64,000 nt of DNA from positions 310,001-374,000 of the forward strand of contig NZ_QTJY01000003.1 in the NCBI RefSeq assembly GCF_003703975.1, given 5' to 3'. The notes under the pieces are model-generated. The model saw only the letters and a program-made list of their open reading frames with translations, ran no database searches and was not told where the DNA came from. Below, piece after piece: positions 47,723 through 62,674 of the stretch; within the stretch, counting starts at the first letter, position 1; every line of letters starts with the position of its first letter. Made by a program: the position numbers and the translations under genes. The DNA is from Larkinella soli. Its GTDB lineage: Bacteria > Bacteroidota > Bacteroidia > Cytophagales > Spirosomataceae.

Positions 47723-48154
47723 TTAATTCAGCAGGGAGACGAAGCGGTCCGGCTGCTTCACCTCCACCTTCGGCGTGTCGATCCGGAACGATTTCCGGAC
47801 GGTCGTGAATCCGTCACTGACTTCGAAGGTGTACAGGCCGTCTTTCATCGTCGCCATTTCAAACTTGCGCCAGTAGGTTTTCAGCCGTTTGCTGACCTTT
47901 TCCGAATGCAGCACCTCATTGTCCTCGTTCAGCAACGACACCTTCAGCGGCACCTCGATGTAATTCTCGATGAGCAGGTTCATTTTGGTGGTGTGAATGG
48001 ACTGGTAGATGGCGACGCCCATGGCTTTGGTACGGCTGACGTTGGGGGCGGTTGCCAATTTCTCATTTTCTTTCCCGTCGTCGGTCGGGTCCGTTGCAAA
48101 AACCGGGGCGCTTGCCAGGAGCGCGATGGCGAGGAGGTTCAGGGCGCGTTTCAT
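47723..48154 (-). CDS. Small secreted protein in the Sus regulon
   Basis: 143 residues with a signal peptide (1-20, ending PVFA). The mature part has a beta-sandwich (MNLLIENYIEVPLKVSLLNE, GLYTFEVSDGFTTVRKSFRI), similar in feel to T9SS-type or Por-secretion-like domains but without a sorting tail. No family recognised. Its upstream element (48204-48253) has the layout shared with susC1, susC2 and two candidate small RNAs, so it is probably expressed together with the nutrient-uptake locus that follows on the right. Confidence 0.65.
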   Translation of the reverse strand: MKRALNLLAIALLASAPVFATDPTDDGKENEKLATAPNVSRTKAMGVAIYQSIHTTKMNLLIENYIEVPLKVSLLNEDNEVLHSEKVSKRLKTYWRKFEMATMKDGLYTFEVSDGFTTVRKSFRIDTPKVEVKQPDRFVSLLN

Positions 48155-48203: not shown

Positions 48204-48253
48204 TAAAAGTAGCCGGACGCCACCGCCCCGGCCTACCCCATTTCAGGTGATTT
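48204..48253 (-). promoter_or_regulatory. Shared regulatory element E (before the 143-aa secreted protein)
   Basis: On the minus strand: AAATCACC (48253-48246), 6 nt, GGGGTAG (48239-48233), 21 nt, then TACTTTTA (48211-48204). Same order and identical spacing as at 53486, 58202 and 62551. Confidence 0.65.
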
Positions 48254-48303
48254 CCGCCAAAACGCCGTTCGGGGTGATAAGCGGTTAAAACCGCTGATAA
48301 ATA

Positions 48304-48331
48304 AAAAACCAGCCCAAAAAGGCTGGTTTTT
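48304..48331 (-). terminator. Terminator of susC1-susD1
   Basis: AAAAACCAGCC (48304-48314) pairs with GGCTGGTTTTT (48321-48331), 6-nt loop, followed by a T-run on the minus strand, 24 bp after the susD1 stop. Confidence 0.9.
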
Positions 48332-48354
48332 ATGGTTTGGGTCAGTCCCCATAC

Positions 48355-49896
48355 TCAATCGACGTCCCACCAGACGGGCGTCAGCACATCGCCCGGCGCG
48401 ATGCCGGTTGTGGTGATGTTGGGGTTTCTCTGGAGTTCCGAATCGACGTAGGGCAGCCGCTTCATGAACTTGCCGCCGGTAATGTTCACCACCGGGACGG
48501 AGAGCGCCGGGAAGCCGGTCCGGCGTTGTTCCGACCAGGCCTCTACCCCATTCAGACCGTACAGGGCCAGGTACTTCTGGGTAATGATGGCCTGAATCTT
48601 ATTGGTCTGTTTGGAATAATCGACGGTCGGCCGGGTCAGGTAGTCACCCACCTGAACACCGAACCGGGTCATGGATGCGGTGACGGCTTCCGAATACAGC
48701 TTCGCCGGGTCTTCGGCGGTGGTGCCGGTCCAGCCCCGCACGGCGGCTTCAGCCCGCAGGAACAGGCTTTCCTCGTACGCCATCAGCACGACAGGCCGCG
48801 CCTTGGCCGCGTTGTCGTCGGCGGCCGACACACCGCTGGCGGCCGAGGTTCCGGTGATGGCCCCGTTGCTGAACCGCTGCCCGATGAAGTATTTACCGGG
48901 GTAGGACGTATACTGGGCGGTATTGGTCGAGGTGGTGCCGTTGGGCGTGAAAACATACTCCGCTTCGGGCGTCCGCAGGTCGGCATCCAGGAAATAGACC
49001 GGGATGCGGGGGTCGCCGGCGGCCGTCATCAGGCTGCCGATGGTGGTGCTGGCCGTCAGGTTGTTGGGCAGGCGGAAGTTGGCCTGCCAGAGCGGATTTT
49101 CGGTGTTCGTCGTCGTTCCGTTGGCAAACTGGAAGCTCTCCCCGGCCCGCATAAAGGCCGACCCGGCCGAGGCATACAGCGCCTGAATCCCGGTCCGGGC
49201 CAGCGTCGGGTCCACCTGGCTCAGCCGGAGATAGAACCGCAGTTTCAGGGTGTTGGCCAGCCGGACCCAGCGGTCCATGCCGGCTTCGTTCCCCGCCGAA
49301 TAAATCATGTCGGCCGTTCCCGGAAAGCGCCCCTGCTTTTTGGCGATGTCGGCCTTGCCCTCATCGAGCAGCGCCTGCATCCCGGCATACACGTCCTTCT
49401 GGGTGTCGTATTTCGGGGTAATGGTCTTGTCGGCGTTCAGGGCCTCCGAGAACGGAATATCCCCGTACAGGTCCGTCAGGATGCCGAAGGTGTAGGCCTT
49501 CATGATCTTCGAGATGCCGACCATCCGCCATTCGTTCTGCGGGGTTCCCTTGTTGATCACGTCCTGAAAATCGGCCAGCGCCCCGGCATACAGGTTTACA
49601 AACTGCCCGCCCTGCCCGTCGAAGGTGGAGGAGGTAATGTTGAACTGATCCCAGACCCGGTACTGGTTTCCTCCGCGCGGGATAGTCCAGTACTGGGCCA
49701 TGATGCCGCCCAGAATGTTGAACTGTCCGCCGACGACGAAGGCCACCTGCGCCTGGCCGGCGGGCAGCAGCAGGTTGATGTCGGCCACCGACGGGTTGTT
49801 GGGGTCGGTATTGATGTCGAGATAATCCTTTTCGCAGGCGGTGTTGATGCCGAGCAGGGCCGTCAGCATCAGGGCTTTTATGACTTTGAGTTTCAT
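48355..49896 (-). CDS. SusD/RagB-like lipoprotein (SusD-like_2 type)
   Basis: 513 residues. Type II signal peptide with Cys at position 21 (NTACEK). TPR-like helical body with the usual landmarks (YLDINTDPNNPS, MVGISKIMKAYTFGILTDLYG, ADKTITPKYDTQKDVY) as in the SusD-like_2 subfamily, which often serves oligopeptide or unusual glycan uptake. It sits on the outer-membrane surface as a lid over SusC1. It follows susC1 after 26 bp. Substrate unknown; no glycoside hydrolase or peptidase gene is linked. Confidence 0.93.
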   Translation of the reverse strand: MKLKVIKALMLTALLGINTACEKDYLDINTDPNNPSVADINLLLPAGQAQVAFVVGGQFNILGGIMAQYWTIPRGGNQYRVWDQFNITSSTFDGQGGQFVNLYAGALADFQDVINKGTPQNEWRMVGISKIMKAYTFGILTDLYGDIPFSEALNADKTITPKYDTQKDVYAGMQALLDEGKADIAKKQGRFPGTADMIYSAGNEAGMDRWVRLANTLKLRFYLRLSQVDPTLARTGIQALYASAGSAFMRAGESFQFANGTTTNTENPLWQANFRLPNNLTASTTIGSLMTAAGDPRIPVYFLDADLRTPEAEYVFTPNGTTSTNTAQYTSYPGKYFIGQRFSNGAITGTSAASGVSAADDNAAKARPVVLMAYEESLFLRAEAAVRGWTGTTAEDPAKLYSEAVTASMTRFGVQVGDYLTRPTVDYSKQTNKIQAIITQKYLALYGLNGVEAWSEQRRTGFPALSVPVVNITGGKFMKRLPYVDSELQRNPNITTTGIAPGDVLTPVWWDVD

Positions 49897-49922
49897 GGGA
49901 TTTCGATGAATGTCGATGGAGA

Positions 49923-52900
49923 TTACAGGACGATTTTCAGGCTGGCGCCGTACGAACGGGCCGTCGGGTAGGCCAGGAACTCATACCCCTGCGAGTTGCC
50001 GGTACCGAAGGAACTGACCTCCGGGTCGACGTGCGGCTGGGATTTGGGCGTCCAGAGCATCAGGTTGCGGCCGATCAGCGACACCTGAATGTTCGTGAAG
50101 GGCGTTTTTCCGAGCAGCGTCTTCGGCAGGGCATAGCTCAGGCTCAGCTCGCGGAACTTCACGAACGACGCGTCGAACAGGGAATTTTCCCCGAAGTTCG
50201 CGACCGTCGACCAGTATTCGAAGCCGCCGTTGGTGGTGATGCTGGTGTTGGGCGTGAACGTACCGTCCTGATTCTGAGTCACCGAGTTAGGATAGACGAA
50301 CGGCTCGCGGTTGTTGTAGGTGGTTTCCTTCAGCGATCCGGCAAACCGGCCCTGATTGATCGTCTGGGAGAAGAACTTGCCGCCCTGGCGGGTATCGAAC
50401 AGCACGTTGAGCGACAGACCCTTGAACGAAACCGTGTTGCTCAGACCGGCCGTAAAGTCGGGCTGGATGCTGCCCAGCGACTGAAGCACGGGGTCGGCGA
50501 GCGGGCGGCCTGTGGTCGGGTTCACCACGACGCGGCCCTGCGGATCGCGCAGCATTCTGCTCCCGAAGAAGGTGCCGTAAGGTTCGCCCAGACGCGCCTG
50601 AAGGCCGGGCGACGCCAGACCGCCGAGGTTTACCGGGGCCAGGGGATTGTACAGCTCGGTTACCTCGTTGCGGTTCCGGGTGAAGTTGAACGACACATCC
50701 CAACGCAGACCGTTCCGCGCCCGCACCGGGGTGCCGGTCAGCAGCAGCTCGATCCCTTTGTTGGTCATGGCCCCGGCGTTCAGGGTCTGGGCCGCAAAGC
50801 CGGAGGTACTGGAGATCGGCACGTTCACGATCTGCTGGTCACTTTTCGAGTTGTAATAGGTGAAGTCGATGCCGAAGCGGTTGTTGAACATGAGCACTTC
50901 CGCCCCGACCTCCCAGGAGGTGGTCCGTTCGGAGCGCAGGTCCGGGTTGCCCCGGATGTTCCCGACGGAGAAGCCGGCTACCCCATTCAGGGGGAACTGG
51001 TATTGTCCCTGAAAACCGTCGACGATGCTGGTCCGGGTGTAGACCGGCAGAATCTGGTAGGCGTTGGCCACCTTGCCCACCTGGGCCGCGTTGGCCCGCA
51101 GCTTGACGTAGTTCAGATTCGTGCTTTTAATGTCGAAGGCCGCGGTCGGGATGAAGCTCACGCTGGCGCCCGGGTAAAAGAACGACCGGTTTTTGGAGGG
51201 CAGCGTGGAGGAGTAGTCGTTCCGGCCCGTGACGTCCAGAAACAGATAGTCCTTATACGACAGCTGCACGTCGCCGTAGATCCCGTACAGCCGGGTCCGG
51301 GAGTCGATGCGGGTGGTGACGATGGTGCTGGCGTTGCTGAGGTCATAGAAGTTCGGAACGATCAGCGGCTGGCCGTCATAAACACCCCGGGAACTGCTGT
51401 AATCCTGGAGGTTATGCCCCAGAATCACCTTCAGGTTGAGGTCCGAGGTCAGGTTCCGGTTCGCCGTAAGGATAAAGTCCGAGAGCAGGCTTTTGAAGGT
51501 CGTGTTGTCTTCCACATAGCGCCCGCCGACGGTGGCGATGGTTCCCTGGGCGAAAGTCTGGGTCCGCAGGTCGGAGTACATATCCGTTCCGATGCGATAG
51601 GTCAGGTTCAGCCAGGGCAGCGGATCATACGACACCTGCGCGTTTCCGAAAAACCGGTTGACGTTGTCTTTCAGCAGGTTGTTGTCGAGAAGCCAGTACG
51701 GGTTGTTCCGGAAGTCGGCCAGATAATAGCCGCGCAGGTCATACCGCGGGTCGTTGTAATCCTTCTGCTCGGTCAGTTCAATGTCGCGCGGGGTGTTGAA
51801 GATCGTCTGGAGAATATTCGAGCGGCCCTGCCCCTGAACGCCCCGATCACCCCCCGAGCGGGTGTAGGTGACCGAGATGTTGGTCGACACCTTGTTGTCG
51901 AAAAACCGGGTGCCGGCCCCTACGTTTACGGAGGTCCGCCGGTAGGCGGTATTCGGGATCATCGACTTCGTGTTGACGTCCGAAAAAGTCAGGATGTAGT
52001 TGGACGTGCCGTTGTTGTTCCGGATCGAGAACGAGTTGTTCAGCGACACGCCGGTATTGAAGAAGTTGCGGATGTTGTTCGGCTTGGCCGTCAGCGGAAT
52101 GGAATCCGGCGCTTCCAGCTGGCCGAGGGAATACAGCCCGTAGGTACGCCAGTCGGCCACCCGCCGGCCGTCCATCTTCGGCCCCCAGCTTATGTTTCCG
52201 GCATCGAGCAGGTCATATACGCCGTCGAAACCGGCGCCGTAGGTGTTCTGGTAATCCGGCAGCCGCAGCGGATTTTCAAAGCTGACCGCGCTGTTCAGGC
52301 TGATCTGGGGTTTGTCCGTAATGTTTTTGCTCCGGTTTTTGGTCGTGATGATGATGACGCCCGAAGCCGCCTGGGAGCCGTAAAGGGCGGCTGCGGCCGG
52401 GCCTTTCAGGATGGAAACCGACTCGATGTTGTTCGGATCGATGTCGGCGGCCCGGTTGGTGATGTCGACCCCGTTGTTGAGGTCCCCGCCCGTTCCGGCG
52501 TTGGAGGGCGTGCCGTTGCCGTTGATGATGGCGGTGGTGGTGTTGTTATTGTTGATGATGATCCCGTCGACGACATACAGCGGCTGGTTGTTGCCGTTGA
52601 ACGACTGCGCCCCCCGAATGACCACGCGGGTGGCTCCGCCGGCGGCCCCGGAGGCACTCGAAATCTGGACGCCGGCCACCCGGCCCTGCAGGGAGCGCAG
52701 CAGGTTGGCTTCGCTGGCCCGTACCAGTTCATCGCCCCGGACATTGGTGACGGCATACCCCAGCGTTTTCTTTTCCCGTTCGATGGCCGAGGCCGTCACG
52801 ACGACCTCCTCCAGAATGGCGGCCCCTTCTTCCAGCGTAATATCGAACCGGCTGCGGTTACCGACCGTAACTTCCTGCGTTTTAAACCCGATGAACGAAA

Positions 52901-53117
52901 AAACCAGGGTGGCGTTCGGCTCGACGTTGCTGAGCCGGAATGTCCCGTTCCCGTCGGTCGTCGTGCCCTGAGAAGTCCCTTTGATCCCCACGTTCACGCC
53001 CGGCATGGGCCCCTTGTCGGATGCGCTCCGGACAGTGCCGGAAACGGATCGGGTCTGGGCTAACCCAATCTGAATAAAAAGCAGCACCCCTACCAAACTT
53101 TGTAGTAGTAATTTCAT
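49923..53117 (-). CDS. SusC/RagA-type TonB-linked outer-membrane transporter (first pair)
   Basis: 1,064 residues: signal peptide (1-21, ending GLAQ), carboxypeptidase-regulatory domain (about 25-95, VSGTVRSASDKGPMPGVNVG), plug (LQGRVAGVQISSASGAAGG, RGAQSFNGNNQPLYVVDG, VSILKGPAAAALYGSQAASG) and a 22-strand barrel. Together with SusD1 it takes up nutrients powered by TonB. Element F at 53171-53220 is its predicted promoter. Length is typical. No N-terminal signal-transduction extension, so it is not tied to an anti-sigma/ECF system. Confidence 0.95.
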   Translation of the reverse strand: MKLLLQSLVGVLLFIQIGLAQTRSVSGTVRSASDKGPMPGVNVGIKGTSQGTTTDGNGTFRLSNVEPNATLVFSFIGFKTQEVTVGNRSRFDITLEEGAAILEEVVVTASAIEREKKTLGYAVTNVRGDELVRASEANLLRSLQGRVAGVQISSASGAAGGATRVVIRGAQSFNGNNQPLYVVDGIIINNNNTTTAIINGNGTPSNAGTGGDLNNGVDITNRAADIDPNNIESVSILKGPAAAALYGSQAASGVIIITTKNRSKNITDKPQISLNSAVSFENPLRLPDYQNTYGAGFDGVYDLLDAGNISWGPKMDGRRVADWRTYGLYSLGQLEAPDSIPLTAKPNNIRNFFNTGVSLNNSFSIRNNNGTSNYILTFSDVNTKSMIPNTAYRRTSVNVGAGTRFFDNKVSTNISVTYTRSGGDRGVQGQGRSNILQTIFNTPRDIELTEQKDYNDPRYDLRGYYLADFRNNPYWLLDNNLLKDNVNRFFGNAQVSYDPLPWLNLTYRIGTDMYSDLRTQTFAQGTIATVGGRYVEDNTTFKSLLSDFILTANRNLTSDLNLKVILGHNLQDYSSSRGVYDGQPLIVPNFYDLSNASTIVTTRIDSRTRLYGIYGDVQLSYKDYLFLDVTGRNDYSSTLPSKNRSFFYPGASVSFIPTAAFDIKSTNLNYVKLRANAAQVGKVANAYQILPVYTRTSIVDGFQGQYQFPLNGVAGFSVGNIRGNPDLRSERTTSWEVGAEVLMFNNRFGIDFTYYNSKSDQQIVNVPISSTSGFAAQTLNAGAMTNKGIELLLTGTPVRARNGLRWDVSFNFTRNRNEVTELYNPLAPVNLGGLASPGLQARLGEPYGTFFGSRMLRDPQGRVVVNPTTGRPLADPVLQSLGSIQPDFTAGLSNTVSFKGLSLNVLFDTRQGGKFFSQTINQGRFAGSLKETTYNNREPFVYPNSVTQNQDGTFTPNTSITTNGGFEYWSTVANFGENSLFDASFVKFRELSLSYALPKTLLGKTPFTNIQVSLIGRNLMLWTPKSQPHVDPEVSSFGTGNSQGYEFLAYPTARSYGASLKIVL

Positions 53118-53170
53118 TTGGTTTGTTGATTATTTGTTTGTTGTTAACAATTATGAAAAATGTTAAACAA

Positions 53171-53220
53171 CAAAGTTCATGAACCTTTAAAGCGGATTAA
53201 TCACGCAAAGCGGGGGATTT
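53171..53220 (-). promoter_or_regulatory. Shared regulatory element F (before susC1), degenerate right half
   Basis: On the minus strand: AAATCCCC (53220-53213), 6 nt, GCGTGAT (53206-53200), 21 nt, then GAACTTTG (53178-53171). The left half and spacing match the other copies; the right half matches 3 of 7 bases. Confidence 0.55.
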
Positions 53221-53344
53221 TAAATCGATTTTATTCGCGGAAAAAGCAGGATTTATTAGAAAATGGGGGAGAAAAACAAGGCCGGAAACCGCCTTTGCCG
53301 GACGCAGCCTTTTAACGTATTTTTCTTTCAACATCCTGAAAACC

Positions 53345-53480
53345 AATAAAAAGAATAAACCGGCCGAAGCGACCGGTTTATTCTTTTTACGTTCATCTCA
53401 TAGATTAGGTCCGGAGGTCCGGAACCTAACGCAATTCTCCTATCTGATGAGCACACTGCTTTGCCCTGCCCGTGTGTCAA
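53345..53480 (-). ncRNA. Candidate small RNA with its own promoter and terminator
   Basis: Starts just after a -7 box (TACTTTTG, 53493-53486) and ends in a strong terminator. Predicted structure: a CACAC/GTGTG stem near the 5' end, a central hairpin TTAGGT-CCGGA/TCCGG-ACCTAA, a CATC/GATG closing stem, then the 16-bp terminator. No good reading frame. Its promoter carries shared element D, so it should be co-regulated with the two susC genes. An alternative is a leader/attenuator of susC1, which has its own promoter. Confidence 0.45.
53348..53388. terminator. Strong terminator of the candidate small RNA
   Basis: A perfect 16-bp stem (AAAAAGAATAAACCGG, 53348-53363; partner 53373-53388) with a 9-nt loop, T-rich on both strands. 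It could stop transcription in both directions, and also read-through from susD2. Confidence 0.9.
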
Positions 53481-53485
53481 CAGAA

Positions 53486-53535
53486 CAAAAGTAGGCGCAT
53501 TATTTCGTCCTGCCCTACCCCATTAAAGGTGATTT
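53486..53535 (-). promoter_or_regulatory. Shared regulatory element D (before the candidate small RNA)
   Basis: On the minus strand: AAATCACC (53535-53528), 6 nt, GGGGTAG (53521-53515), 21 nt, then TACTTTTG (53493-53486). It lies directly after the susD2 stop codon (53537). Confidence 0.7.
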
Positions 53536-53536
53536 A

Positions 53537-54973
53537 TCAGGGATTTTGGTCCTGCGGTCCGATGGCATCGTTGGCGTCGATTTCAGTTTTGGGGAGCTTC
53601 ATAATAAACCGGGGATCGTTGGCCGGAATGTTGAATTTGAAAGCCGCCGAGTGGTTGCCCGTCCGAACCAGCGGGAGCTGCCGCCGTTTGAGATCCAGGA
53701 AGTTGATGCCCAGTTCCCCGTAGAGTTCCTTCCGGCGTTCCAGCAGAATCTCGCTGACCAGGGCCGCGCCGGTTTTGCCCGACTTGACGGCTTTGGGGTC
53801 ACGGCTTTTCTGAACTTCATACAGCAGATCGCCCGCGGTGGCATCCCCCAGTTCGGCCCGGGCCTCCGCTTCGATCAGATACATTTCCGGAACCCGCATC
53901 ATCGGCAATGCCTGGTTGAAGTCGGTGGTCGTCCCGAATTTCGTGGTGGCAAACCGCAGTTGGGCGTTGGTCTGGCCGGTCTTGTAGAAAAGGTTCCGGA
54001 CGTCGGTGGGCGAGAATCGGGCGACGAATTCCTCGTTGATGTAAAAATTGTCGTAGCCCGCCCCGGATTTTTCCCAGAACGAACTGGGTACGCCGTAATA
54101 CAGGGTCTGCTGGCCTTCGGTGGTGTTGGGGAAGGCCCACATCCACTCGGCACTGTTGATATCCTTGAACCCGGTACCGTATTCCTCAGGGTGCAGGGCG
54201 TACCCTTTCCGGGCGCTGACGGCCGCATCCCGCGCCTTCGCCCACTGGCCCTGCTCCAGATAAATCCGGGCCTGAAGCCCATAGGCGACGCTCTGGTTGA
54301 TGTTGCTCTTGAGCAGCCGGTTATTGTCCAGATTGGCGACCGCATACTCGATGTCGGCATTGATCTGGTCGAAGACCTGTTTGATGGTTCCGCGCGGCTT
54401 GCCCCCGGTTTCGATCGTCGTCGGCTCGGTATACACCGGGATGCCCGGGGCGTTCGGATCTTTCAGGATCGTGTGCTGAAATTCGCGGATGGCTTCGAAA
54501 TAGAGCCAGGCCCGCAGCGCCCGCCCCTCGGCGATCAGCCGCTTTTTGGAGGCTTCCGGGAAGTTGCTCTTCCCGACCCCGTCGATCAGAATGTTGGCCT
54601 GGTTGATGAACTCGTAGAAAAACGACCAGGTGAAGTTCACCCGGCGGTAGGTTGGTTCGCGGTTTTCGTGCCGGTAGTCGAACTGGTAATAACCGCCGGG
54701 ATTGATGACGTCGTCGCCCTTTTGCTCCCGCGTCAGGTTGATCGACACGAGGCCCCAGGTGTCGGTCACCCCTCCGGCAGTCGAGTTGAGGTTGCTCCAC
54801 TGGTTGCGGACCCAGCCGTAGATGCCGTTGAAAAAGGCGCGGGCGCCCTCTTCGGTGGAGAACACCTGCTGGGCCGACACCTGCTGGGTCGGCTGGGGTT
54901 CCTCCAGATACTGTTTGGAACAGGAGGCCAGGATGAGGCCGAGTCCCAGTATGATTTTGATGGTCTTGTTCAT
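53537..54973 (-). CDS. SusD/RagB-like lipoprotein
   Basis: 478 residues. Type II signal peptide with the lipidated Cys at position 18 (LASCSKQ), then SusD-family landmarks: QVFSTEEGARAFFNGIYGWV near the N-terminus, RALRAWLYFEAIREFQ, PVYTEPTTIETGGKPRGTI (TPR-like region), and the C-terminal YGELGINFLDLKRRQLPL. It caps the SusC2 transporter on the cell surface. It follows susC2 by 12 bp, so the two form one operon. The family (RagB/SusD, NucD-like) suits glycans or peptides; no substrate can be named. Confidence 0.94.
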   Translation of the reverse strand: MNKTIKIILGLGLILASCSKQYLEEPQPTQQVSAQQVFSTEEGARAFFNGIYGWVRNQWSNLNSTAGGVTDTWGLVSINLTREQKGDDVINPGGYYQFDYRHENREPTYRRVNFTWSFFYEFINQANILIDGVGKSNFPEASKKRLIAEGRALRAWLYFEAIREFQHTILKDPNAPGIPVYTEPTTIETGGKPRGTIKQVFDQINADIEYAVANLDNNRLLKSNINQSVAYGLQARIYLEQGQWAKARDAAVSARKGYALHPEEYGTGFKDINSAEWMWAFPNTTEGQQTLYYGVPSSFWEKSGAGYDNFYINEEFVARFSPTDVRNLFYKTGQTNAQLRFATTKFGTTTDFNQALPMMRVPEMYLIEAEARAELGDATAGDLLYEVQKSRDPKAVKSGKTGAALVSEILLERRKELYGELGINFLDLKRRQLPLVRTGNHSAAFKFNIPANDPRFIMKLPKTEIDANDAIGPQDQNP

Positions 54974-54985
54974 CGGATCGGTTGA

Positions 54986-57900
54986 TTAGAACGTCAGGTT
55001 GATACCGCCCGTCAGGGTCTTGAAAATGGACGAGGTGTTGCTGGTGGTCCCGTTGGGCAGGTTATTGGCGTTGGTGGTTTCGGGGTCGAGACCCTTTTTC
55101 GCGCCCGGCACCCAGGTCCAGTAGTTATCCGCCTGCACATACACCCTGAAATTCCGGACGAACCGCGCGGGCACTTTGACGTTGTAGCCCAGCGTCACGT
55201 TCCGCAGCCGGACGTAATCGCCCTTGAAGAGATAATTGGAAGACCGCTGTACGATGTCGGTATTGGTCGGGTCCAGGCGGGGTACGCCGGTTACATCCCC
55301 CGGTTTCTGCCAGCGGTTCAGCATGTCGGTATGAAGCTGGTAGCCGACCGCCGTAAACCCGTGCATGAGGCCGGTGTAATCGTAGTCGATGATCTTGTTC
55401 CCTCCGGCGAAGTTCAGCAGCAACGACAGATCGAAGCCCCGGTAGGTCAGCTTCGAGGTGAAACCGCCCAGCCATTTCGGAATGGCCGTTCCCTGGTAAT
55501 AATCGGTCGCGTCGCCCTGAACTTTGGTGGTGGTGCGCTCACCGGTCGGGTTGCCGCTCGCGTCCAGTACGTCCTGATACCACATCGCGCTGCCGTCCTG
55601 CGGATCGACGCCCGCATACAGCGGAATATGAAACTCATAGACCGACTTGCCGACTTCCCGCTGGAACTCCCCGCTCTTGATTACACCCTGCGGCAGGGAG
55701 GTGAGCCGGTTTTTGACGGTGGTGAAGTTGATGCCGGTTTCCCAGGTCAGGTTCTTCCCGCGGATGTTGACGGTATTGACGGCCAGTTCGATGCCCGAAT
55801 TGCGGAGGTCGCCGATATTTTCATCCACCGACGGAATGCCCGACGAGGGCACCAGAGGCCGCCCGAACAGCAGGTCGTAGGTATTTTTGACGTAATAATC
55901 CAGGTTGCCCCGGATGCGGTCCTGCAGGAAGCCAAAGTCGACGCCCACGTTCAGGGACGCCTGTTTTTCCCACGAAATCTGCGGATTGGCCAGATAGGTG
56001 AAGTAGACGCCGGAATTGGTCAGGTCGTTGTAACCGGTGCTGAACAGGCTCAGGTAGGGGAAGTAGTTGTCGGCAAGGATACCGCCGGCCTGGGTCAGCA
56101 GGCCGTTGTTCCCCAGGGTTCCGAAGCTGGCCCGCAGCTTGAGGAAACTCAGCGAGGTGATGGGTTTCACGAAGGCTTCCTCACTCAGCACCCACGAGGC
56201 CCCGACCGAGGGGAAGAAGCCCCAGCGCCGGCCGCCCTCCGGCGAGAACCGGCTCGACCCGTCCCGGCGAACCGTCGCTTCGAGGAACAGTTTATCCCGG
56301 TAGGAATACACCGCCCGGCCGAGGTAGCTGACGATGCGTTCGCGGTTGGTATAGCCGTTGGCAAATTCGGTCTGGGCGCCCGAACTGAGTTCCTTCAACC
56401 CGAAAAACGGAAAGCCGATCTTCTGCGAACTCATGGTTTCATACAGGAAATTATAGGCTTCGATGCTGCCCATCAGGTCGATGCTGTGCGGTCCGAACGC
56501 CTTCGTGTAGTTCACCATGTTGTTCCAGGTCCAGGAGGTGGTCAGGTCGTTCTGCCGGGTGACGCGACCGCCCACATTGGCCCCATTGCCCTGCCGGGGA
56601 TTCTCATAGTCGAGCAGGGAATAGGAATACCGGTCGATGCCGAAGTTGGAGCGGAGCCGCAGGCCGGGCAGGGGCCGCACTTCCGCAAAACCGTTCAGGG
56701 AGGTGGTGAACCGCTCGCGACGGGCGTCGTTCAGATAGGTGGTCGCCACCAGGTTCGAGGGGGTCAGCACCGGGCGGTCCTGGTTAACCTGACGGTCAGG
56801 ATTGGGATTCCCGAAGTCGTAGATCGGCTGGCCGTTGGCGTCGAGAACCAGGTTGCCCTTATCGTCGCGTTCGTACACCGGATAAATCGACGACATGGAC
56901 CGCGTGTACTGTACGACGTTATCGAAGCTGGACCCGCCCTGGGTCGGAGCGTTCTGATCGGCATAGACGAACTGGGTCCGAAGGCCGACCTGGAGCCAGT
57001 CTTTCAGATCGGAGGTCAGGTTCATACGGGCCGAAATCCGCTCGAATTTGGAGGTGATGAGATACCCCTCCTGCCCCAGATAGGCCGTAGAGAGAAAATA
57101 CCGGGTTTTGTCGTTTCCTCCGCCGACGCTTACCCCGACTTCCTTCCGGGCGGCATTCCGGTTGGTGAGTTCTTTGGTCCAGTCGGTATTCCAGAGCAGA
57201 TTCGCACCCGAAACCAGCTTACCGTCCGCGCCGACCGGCTGGGCGATGCCGTAGGGGTTGTACCGAAATTCGGACACCAGATTCTCGGAAGCAAATTGCT
57301 CGGGCTGGGGAATACCGGCGTCCTGCGCCAGGTTGCGGATGGCCTCCCACCCCAGTTCGAACTGCTGCTGCGTATTCAGAAACGAATATTCCTTCACAGC
57401 CCGCGACGACACCCCGTAGCTCGAATAGACGCTGATCTCGGTGGTTCCCTTCCTGCCCATTTTGGTGGTGATGAGAATCACGCCGTTGGCGGCCCGGGAC
57501 CCGTAGAGGGCCGCGGCCGAAGCGTCTTTCAGGACACTGATGTTGTCGATGTCACCCGGGTTGATGCTGTTGATGTTGCCCTGAAAGGGAATGCCGTCGA
57601 CCACAATGAGCGGGTTGGAGGAGGCATTGATGGAGCCGACGCCCCGGATGCGGATGGCCGGGTTGTCGCCGGGCTGGCCGGAGCCGTTGACGACCAGTAC
57701 GCCCGGGGCCGTTCCCTGAAGGGCCTGAACGGGCGATACCACCTGCTGCGCCCGGATCTGGTCCGCGTTGACGGCCGATACCGCACCGGTCAGCGCCCGC
57801 CGGGTCTGCTGCCCGTAGGCCACGACCACCACCTCCTGCAGCGAGCGGACATCGGCCGACAGGGAGACGTTGATGGTGCTGCGGTTCTGAACGGTAACTT

Positions 57901-58138
57901 CCTGGGGCATATATCCCACATAGGAGAAAACCAGCGTGGCGTTCGGCGGAACCGACAGGCGATAGGTGCCTTCAGGGTTGGTGGTAGTGCCGGTGCTCGT
58001 GCCTTTCACCACCACGCTGACGCCCGGCAGGTTGATGCCGTCCTCGGCAGCGGTGACTTTTCCCGTCACACTCACGTCCTGCGCCCAGGCCTGAACGGCC
58101 AATAACAGGACAACGGTAATGGATAGAATTGTTTTCAT
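54986..58138 (-). CDS. SusC/RagA-type TonB-linked outer-membrane transporter (second pair)
   Basis: 1,050 residues: signal peptide (1-19, ending AWAQ), carboxypeptidase-regulatory domain (about 22-90), plug with ALQGTAPGVLVVNGSGQPG, IRGVGSINASSNPLIVVDGI and ISVLKDASAAALYGSRAANG, then the barrel. The last three are the classic SusC signatures. With SusD2 it makes a surface uptake complex. Predicted promoter is element C at 58202-58251. It differs clearly in sequence from SusC1, so the pairs are not a recent duplication. Confidence 0.96.
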   Translation of the reverse strand: MKTILSITVVLLLAVQAWAQDVSVTGKVTAAEDGINLPGVSVVVKGTSTGTTTNPEGTYRLSVPPNATLVFSYVGYMPQEVTVQNRSTINVSLSADVRSLQEVVVVAYGQQTRRALTGAVSAVNADQIRAQQVVSPVQALQGTAPGVLVVNGSGQPGDNPAIRIRGVGSINASSNPLIVVDGIPFQGNINSINPGDIDNISVLKDASAAALYGSRAANGVILITTKMGRKGTTEISVYSSYGVSSRAVKEYSFLNTQQQFELGWEAIRNLAQDAGIPQPEQFASENLVSEFRYNPYGIAQPVGADGKLVSGANLLWNTDWTKELTNRNAARKEVGVSVGGGNDKTRYFLSTAYLGQEGYLITSKFERISARMNLTSDLKDWLQVGLRTQFVYADQNAPTQGGSSFDNVVQYTRSMSSIYPVYERDDKGNLVLDANGQPIYDFGNPNPDRQVNQDRPVLTPSNLVATTYLNDARRERFTTSLNGFAEVRPLPGLRLRSNFGIDRYSYSLLDYENPRQGNGANVGGRVTRQNDLTTSWTWNNMVNYTKAFGPHSIDLMGSIEAYNFLYETMSSQKIGFPFFGLKELSSGAQTEFANGYTNRERIVSYLGRAVYSYRDKLFLEATVRRDGSSRFSPEGGRRWGFFPSVGASWVLSEEAFVKPITSLSFLKLRASFGTLGNNGLLTQAGGILADNYFPYLSLFSTGYNDLTNSGVYFTYLANPQISWEKQASLNVGVDFGFLQDRIRGNLDYYVKNTYDLLFGRPLVPSSGIPSVDENIGDLRNSGIELAVNTVNIRGKNLTWETGINFTTVKNRLTSLPQGVIKSGEFQREVGKSVYEFHIPLYAGVDPQDGSAMWYQDVLDASGNPTGERTTTKVQGDATDYYQGTAIPKWLGGFTSKLTYRGFDLSLLLNFAGGNKIIDYDYTGLMHGFTAVGYQLHTDMLNRWQKPGDVTGVPRLDPTNTDIVQRSSNYLFKGDYVRLRNVTLGYNVKVPARFVRNFRVYVQADNYWTWVPGAKKGLDPETTNANNLPNGTTSNTSSIFKTLTGGINLTF

Positions 58139-58201
58139 AGAACGGATTGGACATGGGGTAGAGAATCAGGTTGTAATTCCCCTGCTGGGATAGTTTACAA
58201 A

Positions 58202-58251
58202 CAAATGTCCGAATCCGGGATGGGGGAATTCTACCCTTAAATGGGGGATTT
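58202..58251 (-). promoter_or_regulatory. Shared regulatory element C (before susC2)
   Basis: On the minus strand: AAATCCCC (58251-58244), 6 nt, AGGGTAG (58237-58231), 21 nt, then GACATTTG (58209-58202). A second TCCCCCAT lies inside the 21-nt spacer region (at about 58222-58229), one helical turn or two from the first. Confidence 0.65.
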
Positions 58252-58266
58252 TATCAGTCGGCGGGG

Positions 58267-58383
58267 ACCACCCCCAACCGGTGCGCCGGTCCGCCCCCTC
58301 CTTGGTAAGGAGGGGCGGCTACGCAGGGTTTGAATCTGGCAGCGCCCTCCCCCTCCTTACCAAGGAGGGGGTCGGGGGGTGGT
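58267..58383. repeat. Dispersed paired-palindrome element, copy 2
   Basis: Reverse-oriented copy of the element at 30298-30398. The shared core reads GGAGGGGGAGGGCGCTGCCA on the minus strand. The palindrome centre here is TTGGTAA in both arms, where copy 1 has TCATYAA in both. It ends directly at the stop of the response regulator (58384). Confidence 0.75.
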
Positions 58384-59034
58384 TCAGATCAGCCGGTCCT
58401 TGATGGCCTTTTCGATGGCCTCGGCTTTGGAGTGGACTTCGAGTTTCCAGTAAATATTCTTGATATGCGTCCGGATGGTTTCCTTGTCGACAAATAACTG
58501 CTCGGCGATGGTGGTGTAGCTTTTCCCTTTCGAGAGGAGTTCGAGCACTTCGGTTTCGCGGGCCGTGAGGGGCGAGTTGCGGTTCTTCTGGAACGAGGCC
58601 ACCACCATGCGGGCGATGTTGGTACTCATCGGCGCCCCCCCTTCCTGAATATCCCGGATGGCTTCCAGCAGGCGGGTGGGCTGCATGTTCTTGGTCAGGT
58701 AGCCCCCCGCTCCGGCGCATAACGCCTTGAAAACCAGCTCGTCATTTTCATAGACGGTGACCACGATGATATTGGTCTTGGGACGGAGCTTCTTGATTCG
58801 GGCGATGCCTTCGATGCCGTTCATGCCGGGCAGTTCGATGTCCATCAGAACGACGTCGGGGGCGTCCGTATGAATGTTCTTGATGGCATCTTCGCAGCGG
58901 TAGTACGTGTTGACGATCTTGAAGCCGTACGTACTGTTAATGAGCAGGGCAAAACCGTCGCGGATCAGGTTATCATCCTCGACGATGCAGATGCGGATGG
59001 TCTGCGGACTTCGTAACGGTTGAGTTACGTTCAT
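58384..59034 (-). CDS. NarL/LuxR-family response regulator of the Sus locus
   Basis: 216 residues from the ATG at 59034 (in-frame ATGs 12 and 48 bp further up precede only a hydrophobic run). Receiver domain with acidic pair VEDD, phospho-acceptor D65 in VVLMDIELPGMNG, T in IIVVTVYEND and K in YLTKNM; C-terminal LuxR HTH (LTARETEVLELLSKGKSY, KETIRTHIKNIYWKLEV). It lies between its likely sensor kinase and the susC2 operon, all on one strand. It is the best candidate to bind the shared elements A, C, D, E and F. The RR-kinase pairing is inferred from position. Confidence 0.92.
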   Translation of the reverse strand: MNVTQPLRSPQTIRICIVEDDNLIRDGFALLINSTYGFKIVNTYYRCEDAIKNIHTDAPDVVLMDIELPGMNGIEGIARIKKLRPKTNIIVVTVYENDELVFKALCAGAGGYLTKNMQPTRLLEAIRDIQEGGAPMSTNIARMVVASFQKNRNSPLTARETEVLELLSKGKSYTTIAEQLFVDKETIRTHIKNIYWKLEVHSKAEAIEKAIKDRLI

Positions 59035-59251
59035 GAGTGTGTTCATTAGAGTTTGCAGTAGGAAAATAAAGGGATTTGTCAAAAAACGGCCCCGTTTTTA
59101 CACCAACGGAACGATTGACTTTACGAAAGGGAGGTTGATGAAGCGGCAGATCGCCGGAGACTTCGTCCCGGTTCTCTGGTAATAGACACCCCCAATCCGG
59201 GGGACGTTGCGTTTAGACTTTCAATTTTTTTCAAATTCCTTCTCACCCGGT
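59035..59251. other. Gap between sensor kinase and response regulator, with a related palindrome
   Basis: At 59187-59205 the plus strand reads ACCCCCAATCCGGGGGAC, close to the centre of element A (TCCCCCAATCTGGGGTA), preceded by TAATAG as A is by TAATAA. No -7 box lies at the expected 21 bp on either strand. It may be a second regulator site or only a hairpin behind the kinase gene. Confidence 0.4.
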
Positions 59252-62200
59252 TCACCCAGGTTGCGGGATGTCCATCCGGAAGGTGATGGTCGTGCCCTCC
59301 ATCCGTTCCGAGGTGATCTCCACCCGGCCGCCGATCTTCTCGGCCCGGCTCTGGATGTTGTGCAGGCCGTTGCCCATCGACGACTTTCCGTTCGGCTGAA
59401 TGCCGATTCCGTTGTCCTTCAACTGCACCTCGATCCGCCGGTTCAGCATCGCGAAGGTAATCCGGGCCTCGGTAGCGTGGGAGTGCTTGAGCGTATTGCT
59501 CATGGCCTCCTTGAACAGGAAGATCAGGTGGCGGCTCGTCCCGACGGGCAGTACGGCCTTCCGGAGGTCGTCGGTGATGCCCAGCGCCTGAAAGGTAATC
59601 CGGGTCCGGTCGAAGACGTCGTCGCCGAAATCCTTCAGCCGGATGGCAATTTCCAGAAAGTTGTCATGTTCGGGATTGATGGCCCAGATAAAGTCCTTCG
59701 TTCCCTGATACAGCCGGTTGCTGTTGTCGCTGATTTTGGTCAGCAGGGGGGCGATCTCCTCCCCGTGGCCGTTCAGCTTGCTCTTGATGATCTCGGTCAG
59801 CATCGAAATGCGGGTGATCGTGTTTCCGAACTCGTCGTGCAGGTCCTGTGCGGCCATTTTCCGGACCCGCTCGTTCTCCGCCAGGGTCACGCGCTCCAGT
59901 TCCAGCAGATGCAGGACCCGTTTTTTAACCCGGTAGTTGTAATAGACCCGCGAACCGACCATGACCACGGCCAGCACCAGCACCAGGAACCACCACGTCT
60001 GCCAGAACGGCGGCAGCACCCGGATCGGAATCTGCAGGCCCGCCTTCGGGCCGTTCACGCGGTCGCTCCAGACGCCGTCGCTGTTGGAGCCCCTCACCTT
60101 CAGGATATACGTTCCGGGTTTCAGGTTCGTGAAGCTCACATACCGGCGGGTACCGCTATAGACCCAGTCGTCGTGGAAGCCTTCGAGCATGTAGGCGTAC
60201 TGGTTTTTCTGCGGGTTGGTAAAATCGAGGGAGGCAAACGAGAAGGAGAAGAAATTCTCGCCCGGCCGAATCTCGATCTCCGCATTCTGGGCCAGCAGGC
60301 TGTCGATGTTGACCGGCTTCTCGAATTTCTGAAAGGAGGTCAGCACCGTCCGGGGCAGATGGCGGTTGCGGGTCATCCGGAGCGGGTTGAAGCTGATCAG
60401 GGAGCCGATACCGCCGAAAAACATCTCTCCGTCGCGGCTCTGGTGGTAGGAGTTCATGTTGAACTCATTGATGGTCAGGCCGTCGTTGGCGTCGAAATTC
60501 TCGAACCGTTCCGTGGCCGGATCGAAGCACGAAAGACCCAGGTTGGTACTCATCCAGATGCGGCCCCGGGCGTCTTCGAGCGCCCCGTAGACCAGCCCGT
60601 TGGGCAGGCCGTCGCGCTCGGTATAATGGATGAACTTCTCTTTCCCGTCGCGGCCGTATACCATCTTGCTGAAACCCTTGTTGCTGCACACCCAGAACTG
60701 GTCGCGGCTGTCGCGCAGGAAGCCGAGCACCTGTTCCCCGATCAGGCTGTTGGGGTCTTTGGGATTATTTTCGTAGTGGGTGATCCGGCCGGTTTTCGGA
60801 TTGATCTTGTTCAGGCCGAAACCCGTTCCGACCCAGAGCATCCCGTTCCGGTCTTCCTGAACGGCATAGACCACGAAGGCCCGCAGGCTGTTGGGTTCTT
60901 TCGGATCGTAGCGGTAGGTGGTCACTGCGCCGGTGCGGGCATCGATCCTTCGGAGGCTCGAATACCCGCCTACCCAGAGGTTATCCCGGCTGTCTTCGTA
61001 GAGGCTCAGGACGCCGTCCCCCTGATCATCCGTTCCGGCGGACATTTCCTTGCCCGACCCGGCCAGCACTTTCACGAAATGATTCTTTTCCCGGTCGAAA
61101 CGGAACAGGCCGGCGGGGTTTCCGACCCAGAGCCGGCCCTTGCGGTCTTCCCGGATCGACTCGATCTTATCGCTTCCGATGCTGTTCGGGTTGGCGGGGT
61201 CGGCCCGGTACCGCTCCACCTGCATCGTCAGCCGGTCGATCTTCAGCAGGCCCTCGTGGGTGCCGACCCAGAGTTTTCCGGAGTGGTCCGTACAAAGGGC
61301 CCAGACCAGGTTGGCCGCCGACGATTGCTGCCGGTTGGTGATGATCGGCCACTGCCGGAACGTGTTCTTCGACCGGCTGTAGAGCTGCACGCCCGAATCG
61401 TGGGTGCCGATCCAGAGCACGTCCTCGTTGGGAGACGGTCCTTCGTAGATGGTGTTGATGTACCCGGTTTTCAGTCCTTTCCGGCCGAAGGGGTCCTCCC
61501 GGATGGAATCTTCATACCGGAGGTGCTGGTCGCTGATGATCCAGAACCGGCAGATGCCGCTTTTCTGGGTGCTGACCCACAGGATGTTGTTACGGTCGGC
61601 GTGAAGAGAGGTGATGACGTTGTCGCCGGTCTGGGCCGTGATTTCCCCCAGGATTTCCGACTGAACGAGTTTCGGATTGATCCGCGCCACCCCGTTGGTA
61701 GTGCCGACCCAGAGCGTTCCGTACCGGTCGACGGCCAGCGTTTTGACCCAGGAGGCAGGAAGCTGGTATTTCCGTTTTTCGGTACAGGCCACGATCGACA
61801 GCGGTTGGGTCGGTGCGGCTCCGGGCCGGGCCATCGGCAGTTCGGCCAGCCCGCCCCCCGTTCCGATCCAGAGGGTTCCGTTCGCATCGGGCAGCAGGGT
61901 CGTGACCACCTGAGAAGCCCGGTCGTCCGCGTTGCCCAGGCTGTAATGCTGTACCTGGTAGGAACCGTTCTTCCGGAAGACGAGCCGTTTCAGCCCCCAG
62001 CTCGTGCCGACCCACAGGGTTCCGAACCGGTCGGCTTTGACGGCATTGATGGTGGTGAGGTTAAACCGCCGGCGTTTGGGCTCGAGCAGGTCCCAGTACC
62101 GCTGAAACCGCCCGGTGAGGGGGTCATACCGATTGAGTCCGTTGATGGTGCCGACCCAGATGTGGCCCCGGGCGTCCTCACAGAGAGAAAGAATATGATC

Positions 62201-62491
62201 CTGGGAGAGCGTCGTGCTGTCGAAGGGATTGTGTTTATAGTGGGTGATCTGGTAGCCGTCGTAGCGGTTGAGGCCGTCCTGCGTACCGAACCATACATAC
62301 CCCCGGCTGTCTTTCAGAATGCAGAATACCTCGCTCTGGGAGAGGCCGTTGTCGACCGAAAGCTGATCCAGAAACCGGGAAGCGGAGCCGTGCCTGTACC
62401 AGGAGCTGCCTTTGGGCAGGTTCTGAACGGACTGACCCAGGCCCGCCGTCCGGAGGCTGAAAAGAATCAGTATGCCCAGTAGAGACCTCAT
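59252..62491 (-). CDS. Beta-propeller sensor histidine kinase of the Sus locus
   Basis: 1,079 residues from the ATG at 62491 (18 bp inside the longest frame; the predicted leader would be too short for the outer start). Signal peptide (RTAGLGQ end), then about fourteen Reg_prop units (each with WVGT or similar: VWFGTQDGLNRYDG, IWVGTINGLNRYDP, LWVGTHEGLLKIDR), a Y_Y_Y domain (FDFTN-like FASLDFTNPQKNQYAYMLEG), a membrane segment (TWWFLVLVLAVVMVG), and a HisKA_3 kinase with H in AAQDLHDEFGNTITRIS and ATPase boxes (EAMSNTLKHSHA, DNGIGIQ, GNGLHNIQSRA). It has the sensor of HTCS proteins but not their receiver/AraC parts, which are replaced by the separate NarL-type regulator. Confidence 0.94.
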   Translation of the reverse strand: MRSLLGILILFSLRTAGLGQSVQNLPKGSSWYRHGSASRFLDQLSVDNGLSQSEVFCILKDSRGYVWFGTQDGLNRYDGYQITHYKHNPFDSTTLSQDHILSLCEDARGHIWVGTINGLNRYDPLTGRFQRYWDLLEPKRRRFNLTTINAVKADRFGTLWVGTSWGLKRLVFRKNGSYQVQHYSLGNADDRASQVVTTLLPDANGTLWIGTGGGLAELPMARPGAAPTQPLSIVACTEKRKYQLPASWVKTLAVDRYGTLWVGTTNGVARINPKLVQSEILGEITAQTGDNVITSLHADRNNILWVSTQKSGICRFWIISDQHLRYEDSIREDPFGRKGLKTGYINTIYEGPSPNEDVLWIGTHDSGVQLYSRSKNTFRQWPIITNRQQSSAANLVWALCTDHSGKLWVGTHEGLLKIDRLTMQVERYRADPANPNSIGSDKIESIREDRKGRLWVGNPAGLFRFDREKNHFVKVLAGSGKEMSAGTDDQGDGVLSLYEDSRDNLWVGGYSSLRRIDARTGAVTTYRYDPKEPNSLRAFVVYAVQEDRNGMLWVGTGFGLNKINPKTGRITHYENNPKDPNSLIGEQVLGFLRDSRDQFWVCSNKGFSKMVYGRDGKEKFIHYTERDGLPNGLVYGALEDARGRIWMSTNLGLSCFDPATERFENFDANDGLTINEFNMNSYHQSRDGEMFFGGIGSLISFNPLRMTRNRHLPRTVLTSFQKFEKPVNIDSLLAQNAEIEIRPGENFFSFSFASLDFTNPQKNQYAYMLEGFHDDWVYSGTRRYVSFTNLKPGTYILKVRGSNSDGVWSDRVNGPKAGLQIPIRVLPPFWQTWWFLVLVLAVVMVGSRVYYNYRVKKRVLHLLELERVTLAENERVRKMAAQDLHDEFGNTITRISMLTEIIKSKLNGHGEEIAPLLTKISDNSNRLYQGTKDFIWAINPEHDNFLEIAIRLKDFGDDVFDRTRITFQALGITDDLRKAVLPVGTSRHLIFLFKEAMSNTLKHSHATEARITFAMLNRRIEVQLKDNGIGIQPNGKSSMGNGLHNIQSRAEKIGGRVEITSERMEGTTITFRMDIPQPG

Positions 62492-62522
62492 CCAGTCTGG
62501 GGGATACATATCCCCATTTTTA

Positions 62523-62530
62523 CAAAAATA
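62523..62530 (-). promoter_or_regulatory. -7 box of the sensor kinase promoter
   Basis: TATTTTTG on the minus strand, about 32 bp before the ATG at 62491. Operator A starts 20 bp upstream of it, so the kinase promoter and the plus-strand small RNA share the same site. Confidence 0.55.
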
Positions 62531-62550
62531 CGACGTTCCGGCGGCTTAAT

Positions 62551-62600
62551 AAATCCCCCAATCTGGGGTAATTCGATCGCGAATTCCGGCACTAACTTTG
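62551..62600 (+). promoter_or_regulatory. Shared regulatory element A (divergent, plus-strand promoter)
   Basis: On the plus strand: AAATCCCC (62551-62558), 6 nt, GGGGTAA (62565-62571), 21 nt, then TAACTTTG (62593-62600). The operator is nearly palindromic, and on the minus strand the kinase -7 box stands 20 bp away from it. Confidence 0.7.
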
Positions 62601-62605
62601 TTCAA

Positions 62606-62674
62606 ACATGTACATTTAGTTTAGGTTAAGAAAGCAGTAAAAGTAGCCTTGCGTCGACCAGGGCTATTTTTATT
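62606..62674 (+). ncRNA. Candidate small RNA facing trmH
   Basis: About 70 nt between the -7 box at 62593-62600 and the terminator at 62639-62673. It contains no reading frame beyond ATGTACATTTAG. Its 3' end touches the stop of the convergent methyltransferase gene. Element A before it is shared with the Sus promoters. It could also be just a short antisense or divergent transcript. Confidence 0.4.
62639..62673. terminator. Terminator between the candidate small RNA and the methyltransferase gene
   Basis: AAAAGTAGCCTT pairs with AGGGCTATTTTT (about 12 bp, one G-U), loop GCGTCGACC, then TATTTT. Also usable, more weakly, by the minus-strand methyltransferase gene. Confidence 0.7.

Follow-up and report, generated by a model that had tools for sequence, protein, structure and literature searches.

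Repeated operator-promoter units around a LuxR-type response regulator and SusCD transporter genes in Larkinella soli

The locus and its operator-promoter units

The DNA analysed here is a stretch of 64,000 nt from Larkinella soli (contig NZ_QTJY01000003.1, positions 310,001 to 374,000 of the forward strand; hereafter the window), part of a 6.92 Mb genome. It contains a run of genes on the minus strand which code, in this order, for a sensor kinase, a response regulator, two SusC-SusD transporter pairs (susC2, susD2, susC1, susD1) and a protein of 143 amino acids (aa). Several of these genes, as well as two candidate small RNAs, are preceded by copies of one operator-promoter unit, which is the subject of this report. 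The features are collected in Table 1. The response regulator matches PF00072 (97.1 bits) and PF00196 (64 bits), both above the cut-off, and its residue D65, which we take to be the phospho-acceptor aspartate, is nearly invariant (at least 90%) across 15 aligned sequences. The kinase was taken to start at 62491, where an ATG aligns across the genus, rather than at the start of the longer frame from 62509. A Pfam scan of the 143-aa protein itself gave no match.

Table 1. Predicted features of the locus, in window coordinates
Feature	Coordinates	Strand	Remarks
143-aa protein	47723..48154	-	secreted as read from sequence; homologues show weak DUF3244 / Por_Secre_tail similarity
Site 1, operator-promoter of the 143-aa secreted protein gene	48204..48253	-	
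susD1, SusD-like lipoprotein	48355..49896	-	
susC1, TonB-dependent SusC-like transporter	49923..53117	-	
Site 2, operator-promoter of susC1	53171..53220	-	
Candidate small RNA 1	53346..53481	-	about 130 nt; hairpin, invariant TCTATGAGATGAACGT, terminator; full-length score in Larkinella only
Site 3, operator-promoter of candidate small RNA 1	53486..53535	-	
susD2, SusD-like lipoprotein	53537..54973	-	
susC2, TonB-dependent SusC-like transporter	54986..58138	-	
Site 4, operator-promoter of susC2	58202..58251	-	among nine Larkinella genomes, in the window genome only
Response regulator	58384..59034	-	receiver and GerE/LuxR-type DNA-binding domain; presumed binder of the operator
Possible weak extra dyad, 5' of the regulator gene	59251..59271	-	10.1 bits here
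Sensor histidine kinase	59252..62491	-	Reg_prop propeller, Y_Y_Y, HisKA_3, HATPase_c
Reverse reading of site 5, putative operator-promoter of the sensor kinase gene	62523..62572	-	ATTACCCC-N6-GGGGATT-21-TATTTTTG; counterpart in 9/9 Larkinella
Site 5, operator-promoter of candidate small RNA 2	62551..62600	+	palindrome 62551-62573 common to the kinase promoter
Candidate small RNA 2	62603..62674	+	conserved 5' part, unpaired, with AGTTTAGGTTAAG; followed by a terminator hairpin; model R3 gives 92.6 bits (training member)

A previous sequence-only reading of this DNA had described five 50-nt units. All five were found where it placed them and on the strands it gave, and all have the geometry 8-6-7-21-8 (left part, gap, right part, spacer and -7 box). 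The boxes had been described as TAnnTTTG-type, which is strictly so in sites 3 and 5; those of the other three sites depart from it (TACTTTTA, GAACTTTG and GACATTTG). The right half of site 2, said to be degenerate, is not: this site is a dyad with a different right half, which is kept among genus mates (AAATC(C/A)CC-N6-GCGGGAT in 6/8, AAATCCCC-N6-GCGTGAT in 2/8). The primary promoter consensus of Bacteroides, as given in the available part of PMC7366714, consists of TAnnTTTG near -7 and TTTG near -33. No -33 element is evident in the units, in agreement with the proposal that the heptamer occupies its place; the operator, however, is a palindrome rather than a left element with a heptamer. 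On the minus strand, site 5 gives the palindrome, 21 nt and then TATTTTTG at 62523-62530, in front of the kinase gene. Since site 5 reads both ways, the operator is taken as a palindrome and the kinase gene, which had been overlooked in the earlier reading, is likely a target too. The palindrome is clearest in relatives, the Larkinella sites deviating in one half, and a loose palindrome search of the window yielded 8 matches for 4.5 expected, which is not significant.

The unit is rare in the genome. The exact core AAATCnCC-N7-GGGTA has five matches in the 6.92 Mb, four of which are sites 1, 3, 4 and 5; the fifth lies inside an open frame of 160 aa and lacks a -7 box. Allowing one mismatch gave 29 matches in the genome, and none of the 25 that were inspected had a 6/6 box at the right distance. 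With two mismatches the core pattern is no longer specific (557 matches versus 237 for a reversed control). Model R1, which describes the operator and promoter unit by sequence only, found six matches at E <= 0.0018, all of them in the locus, followed by one at E 0.15 (150 of 1620 first-look candidates were scored). Because 6 of the 29 training rows of R1 are the locus sites themselves, this result is partly circular, and independent weight is therefore placed on the exact-pattern search and on the comparative tests below. An even spread of the motif over the genome, named beforehand in the earlier reading as the outcome that would speak against it, was not seen: near-exact matches with a box are restricted to the locus. 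On this test the earlier reading is supported.

In eight other Larkinella genomes the order of genes and sites is rRNA methylase, operator, kinase, regulator, site 3, RNA 1, terminator, site 2, susC1, susD1, site 1 and 143-aa protein, with sites 1, 2 and 3 and both readings of site 5 being kept. Of the 46 sites collected from the nine genomes, 38 have 21 nt between operator and box; the other eight, which are those in the RNA 2 direction in the genus mates, have 22 nt. The patterns used for collecting sites 1 and 3/4 demanded 21 nt; no site was lost to another spacing, since each of the nine genomes yielded site 1 and site 3/4. The susC2D2 pair with site 4, placed between the regulator and site 3, is found in the window genome alone among the nine. 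A relative (G033) has susC2D2 and no susC1D1 within the 20 kb fetched. It appears that SusCD pairs are exchanged as units under the same control, because susC2D2 with its own operator (53537-58251) is present here and in G033, and not in the eight other Larkinella.

Two further elements lie close to the regulator gene. The extra dyad of Table 1 has counterparts about 140 nt 5' of the regulator gene in the eight genus mates, G001-G008 (12.6-16.7 bits), and a dyad of at least 14 bits occurs in 15 of 49 loci compared with 0.2 expected from letter shuffles (a few genomes are counted twice here under G and L names). Between the regulator gene and site 4 there is a GC-rich inverted repeat (58284-58382; arms 58297-58313 and 58352-58368, both with CCTCCTTGGTAAGGAGG), which looks like a dispersed palindromic repeat because the same arm pair recurs at one more place in the genome (L174, contig C26). 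Rfam microRNA and leader matches at 58294-58371 and 48302-48350 scored below the cut-off and were disregarded.

Operator and regulator in related genomes

The strict operator-promoter pattern was found in 10 of 59 related genomes and in none of the 41 without a regulator match at E <= 1e-60; all 10 belong to the 18 that have such a match. All 15 strict-pattern matches are on the contig of the regulator and at most 13 kb from its gene. This co-occurrence supports the regulator, of NarL type, as the candidate that the sequence-only reading had named: since the site follows the regulator across genera, the linked regulator is the candidate binder.

A scan of related genomes with a matrix had also been suggested. 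A matrix built from Larkinella sites only was applied to 33 named non-Larkinella loci (Arsenicibacter, Rhodocytophaga, Siphonobacter, Runella, Emticicia, Xanthocytophaga, a Catalimonadaceae strain and metagenome bins). Three more loci were excluded: L216 and L218, which are remote matches in other phyla, and L217, which is a fragment. Of the 33 regulator loci, 26 have a position of at least 22 bits; first-order Markov sequence, drawn 20 times per locus, predicts 0.15. The region upstream of the kinase gene was testable in 20 loci; 15 of them score at least 20 bits in the forward direction (0.01 expected), and these 15 sites give AAATCCCCCAnnTTGGGTGAn, a near-perfect palindrome. Of the five forward misses, three (L187, L188 and L189) have strong sites in the reverse direction and L205 reaches 18.2 bits; the fifth is considered below. 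Clear sites are found in loci whose regulator is as little as ~64% identical. The sites, their geometry, their confinement to the locus, their conservation and their co-occurrence with the regulator are all computed directly.

Paralogous regulators encoded in the same genome, with 44-46% identity (L172, i.e. G000:C1 around 180190; L173; L175), have related but different dyads nearby. One is located ~40 nt past the regulator gene and has a box at 21 nt; another has AATACG..CGTATT arms. The operator-promoter layout may be general for this type of regulator.

The candidate small RNAs

Both small RNAs proposed in the sequence-only reading turned out to be conserved, RNA 1 in Larkinella only and RNA 2 in other genera too; neither has a match in Rfam. 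RNA 1 folds much better than its shuffled versions (z -6.57), and forms two helices in which 97.2% of cells are paired; three pairs, every one of them in the terminator helix, show changes in both partners. It scores at least 117 bits in the nine Larkinella genomes (all training rows) and at most 35 bits elsewhere among 99 genomes, and model R2 gave weak matches too (E 1e-4 to 0.01). Two near-complementary places were found elsewhere in the genome, neither at a gene start, and no target is proposed for RNA 1.

RNA 2, of ~70 nt, consists of 33 unpaired nt followed by a terminator hairpin (z -2.83). Its score is at least 91 bits in 9/9 Larkinella (training rows), and it stands in the same divergent position, at 49-69 bits, in G033 and G027 (training rows) and in G076 and G074 (outside training). 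Model R3 matches at E <= 0.1 in 66 of the 99 genomes, where many of the weaker matches may be terminators alone. The 12-mer GTTTAGGTTAAG has three copies in the L. soli genome, each immediately before a terminator: one in RNA 2, one past a gene read from its sequence as coding for an outer-membrane barrel protein and one past a paralogue of the 143-aa protein. This paralogue (L133 1114-1491, G000:C25) is 125 aa long and has weak DUF3244 similarity just below the cut-off; the RNA 2 seed and a terminator follow it directly. A survey of GTTTAGGTTAAG took the first-listed locus from 30 of the 49 genomes with a match. A strong terminator (score at least 26) directly follows it at 10 of these loci, all among the 20 from the same family; of the ten outside the family none has one, and five have weak terminator calls (11-19). 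The bare 12-mer was therefore discarded as sole marker of RNA 2.

It could be argued that neither RNA is a regulator, RNA 1 being a 5' leader or attenuator of susC1 and RNA 2 the terminator of the rRNA methylase gene. RNA 1 does sit between site 3 and susC1, and the RNA 2 hairpin, just past the methylase gene, could end transcripts from both sides. However, in 9/9 genomes susC1 has its own operator-promoter past the RNA 1 terminator, and conservation of RNA 2 reaches well past the hairpin. Moreover, the RNA 2 seed region is identical in six Siphonobacter genomes (seven loci, two from one genome), where it is kept behind an operator-promoter, and it recurs before terminators at two unlinked loci in the L. 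soli genome. We consider it rather unlikely that both RNAs can be explained away in this manner.

The complement of the RNA 2 seed was searched for in this genome, with up to two mismatches allowed. The count was not above control (ten matches, i.e. three to itself and seven others, versus 14 for the reversed pattern). Two of the seven are situated 19 nt before a start codon. One of them precedes a SusC-like gene on contig C12, whose start is at 130645. The other precedes a gene that we take to be sdhB-like; that match is present in 0/8 genus mates and was put down to chance. The start region of the C12 susC gene keeps TTAACCTAA in 9/9 Larkinella, which offers a 9-nt perfect complement (15 nt with one G-U pair in three), whereas in a background of 855 other start regions, many of them from related genomes, eight reach at least 9 nt and none 15 nt with a G-U pair. 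In Siphonobacter G027 the seed differs, and the susC orthologue of that genome matches its own seed over 13 nt.

We tentatively suggest, as a possibility that we hold to be less probable than its contrary, that one palindrome fires both ways, giving more kinase on one side and, on the other, an RNA 2 that pairs over the start of the unlinked susC and shuts that transporter down. Several points weigh against such pairing. The susC target was itself picked by the seed search; the orthologues in G010, G033, G025, G011 and G024 match over 7-8 nt only, a level met or exceeded by 87 of the 855 background regions; and a SusC-like start in Rhodocytophaga (L184), which is unrelated, also matches the Siphonobacter seed over 13 nt and so weakens the Siphonobacter match. 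Duplex energy did not single out a target among 171 start regions, since at least 8 of 30 shuffled seeds beat the real one. If the suggestion is true, switching on one uptake system would switch off a rival one, by means of an RNA akin to the FopS RNAs of Bacteroides (see below) that arose separately from them, and the RNA 2 seed and its target would have changed together between Larkinella and Siphonobacter.

Regulatory model and comparison with known systems

The locus is probably a self-contained two-component regulon, in which the regulator would bind the palindrome and activate the SusCD systems, the genes for the 143-aa protein and the kinase, and the two candidate RNAs. Here we infer the identity of the binder, activation, the transcription start points, the sensing of a ligand and the production of the two RNAs. 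The Reg_prop-type sensor kinase would sense a ligand and phosphorylate the LuxR/NarL-type regulator, a dimer of which would bind the palindrome (in related genera approximately TCMCCCA-N3-TGGGKGA). Bound regulator would then stand in for the missing -33 element, i.e. class II activation of the primary sigma factor. In this way the operators would switch on susC2D2, susC1D1, the 143-aa protein gene and small RNA 1, and a single palindrome with boxes on both sides would switch on both small RNA 2 and, as positive feedback, the kinase gene. The centre of the palindrome lies 31 nt upstream of the -7 box, and transcription starts a few nt past such a box; the palindrome would thus be centred at about -42 from the transcription start. 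With a centre near -42 and no -33 element evident, it fits the position of a class II activator.

Several observations count against a regulon of this kind. Three of the five -7 boxes depart from the consensus, and site 4 is the weakest of the sites (21.5 bits with R1). The strict pattern is absent from 8 of the 18 regulator-bearing genomes (a relaxed matrix recovers sites in several of these eight). Outside the genus, 7 of the 33 loci have no position of at least 22 bits; of the 20 whose kinase upstream region was testable, one (L193) shows no site there. The genomes compared are related and the counts are not independent events. Lastly, cross-talk with paralogous regulators is possible, because a site of 22.4 bits lies ~40 nt past the gene of one paralogue, which is encoded in the same genome and is 44% identical.

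A palindrome in a promoter may equally well belong to a repressor, such palindromes being as common for repressors as for activators, and the same or another protein could block RNA polymerase here until a ligand releases it. The sites do overlap the position expected of a -33 element. Repressor sites, however, usually overlap the box or the start and keep no fixed phase, whereas all 46 Larkinella sites are at 21 or 22 nt from the box; moreover, the inferred centre is near -42, with no recognisable -33 element remaining. Repression is in our opinion improbable. That the element is the -35 part of a promoter for an alternative (extracytoplasmic function) sigma factor is very improbable indeed: its constant distance to the downstream box would agree with this, but it is palindromic, it is flanked by a box on either side at the kinase gene, the downstream box looks like the one used by the primary sigma factor (consensus from the available part of PMC7366714) and none of the eight locus proteins scanned is a sigma factor.

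The reading preferred here, activation by the linked regulator, comes with an operator that can be tested, a spacing rule and a promoter layout, all applicable to loci of such regulators in several genera of the Cytophagales. With these, regulators of this type could be matched to SusCD transporters from sequence. The locus also adds a candidate example of a two-component system that controls small RNAs, which may in turn affect another transporter.

The system resembles NarL/FixJ (LuxR-type) regulators in having a receiver and a GerE domain, a palindromic operator, C-rich half sites and an inferred position near -42. The NarL operator has the half site TACYNMT and a 2-nt centre, unlike the half site TCMCCCA and 3-nt centre found here, and the partner kinase here is a Reg_prop propeller sensor. 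Among open-licence papers, judged by titles and abstract openings, none was found on operators for LuxR-type partners of Reg_prop kinases, and a search for small RNAs in these genera gave nothing on this system. A Reg_prop/Y_Y_Y sensor part adjoining SusCD genes is a feature presumably shared, by domain kinship, with the hybrid two-component systems of Bacteroides. In the available part of PMC3878776 these are described as kinase-regulator fusions with an AraC-type domain, and direct-repeat operators, ~21 bp apart on average, are predicted for 16 of them. In contrast, the kinase and the regulator are here separate proteins, the DNA-binding domain is LuxR-type (GerE) and not AraC-type, and the operator is palindromic instead of a direct repeat.

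A tentative parallel may be drawn between RNA 2 and the RbpB-bound FopS RNAs, which repress SusC translation in Bacteroides (available part of PMC11697453). RNA 2 found no FopS match in Rfam, in a release not checked for the presence of FopS, and five seed-like letter strings do not occur in the available text of PMC11697453. As in FopS/GibS of Bacteroides, an unpaired 5' seed is followed by a terminator, and there are several genome copies, in intergenic and 3' untranslated settings (PMC11697453, available part); pairing at a susC start would possibly be a further likeness. Unlike FopS, RNA 2 belongs to a different bacterial class, has 3 copies rather than 14 (same source and part) and is apparently tied in its transcription to a local two-component operator.

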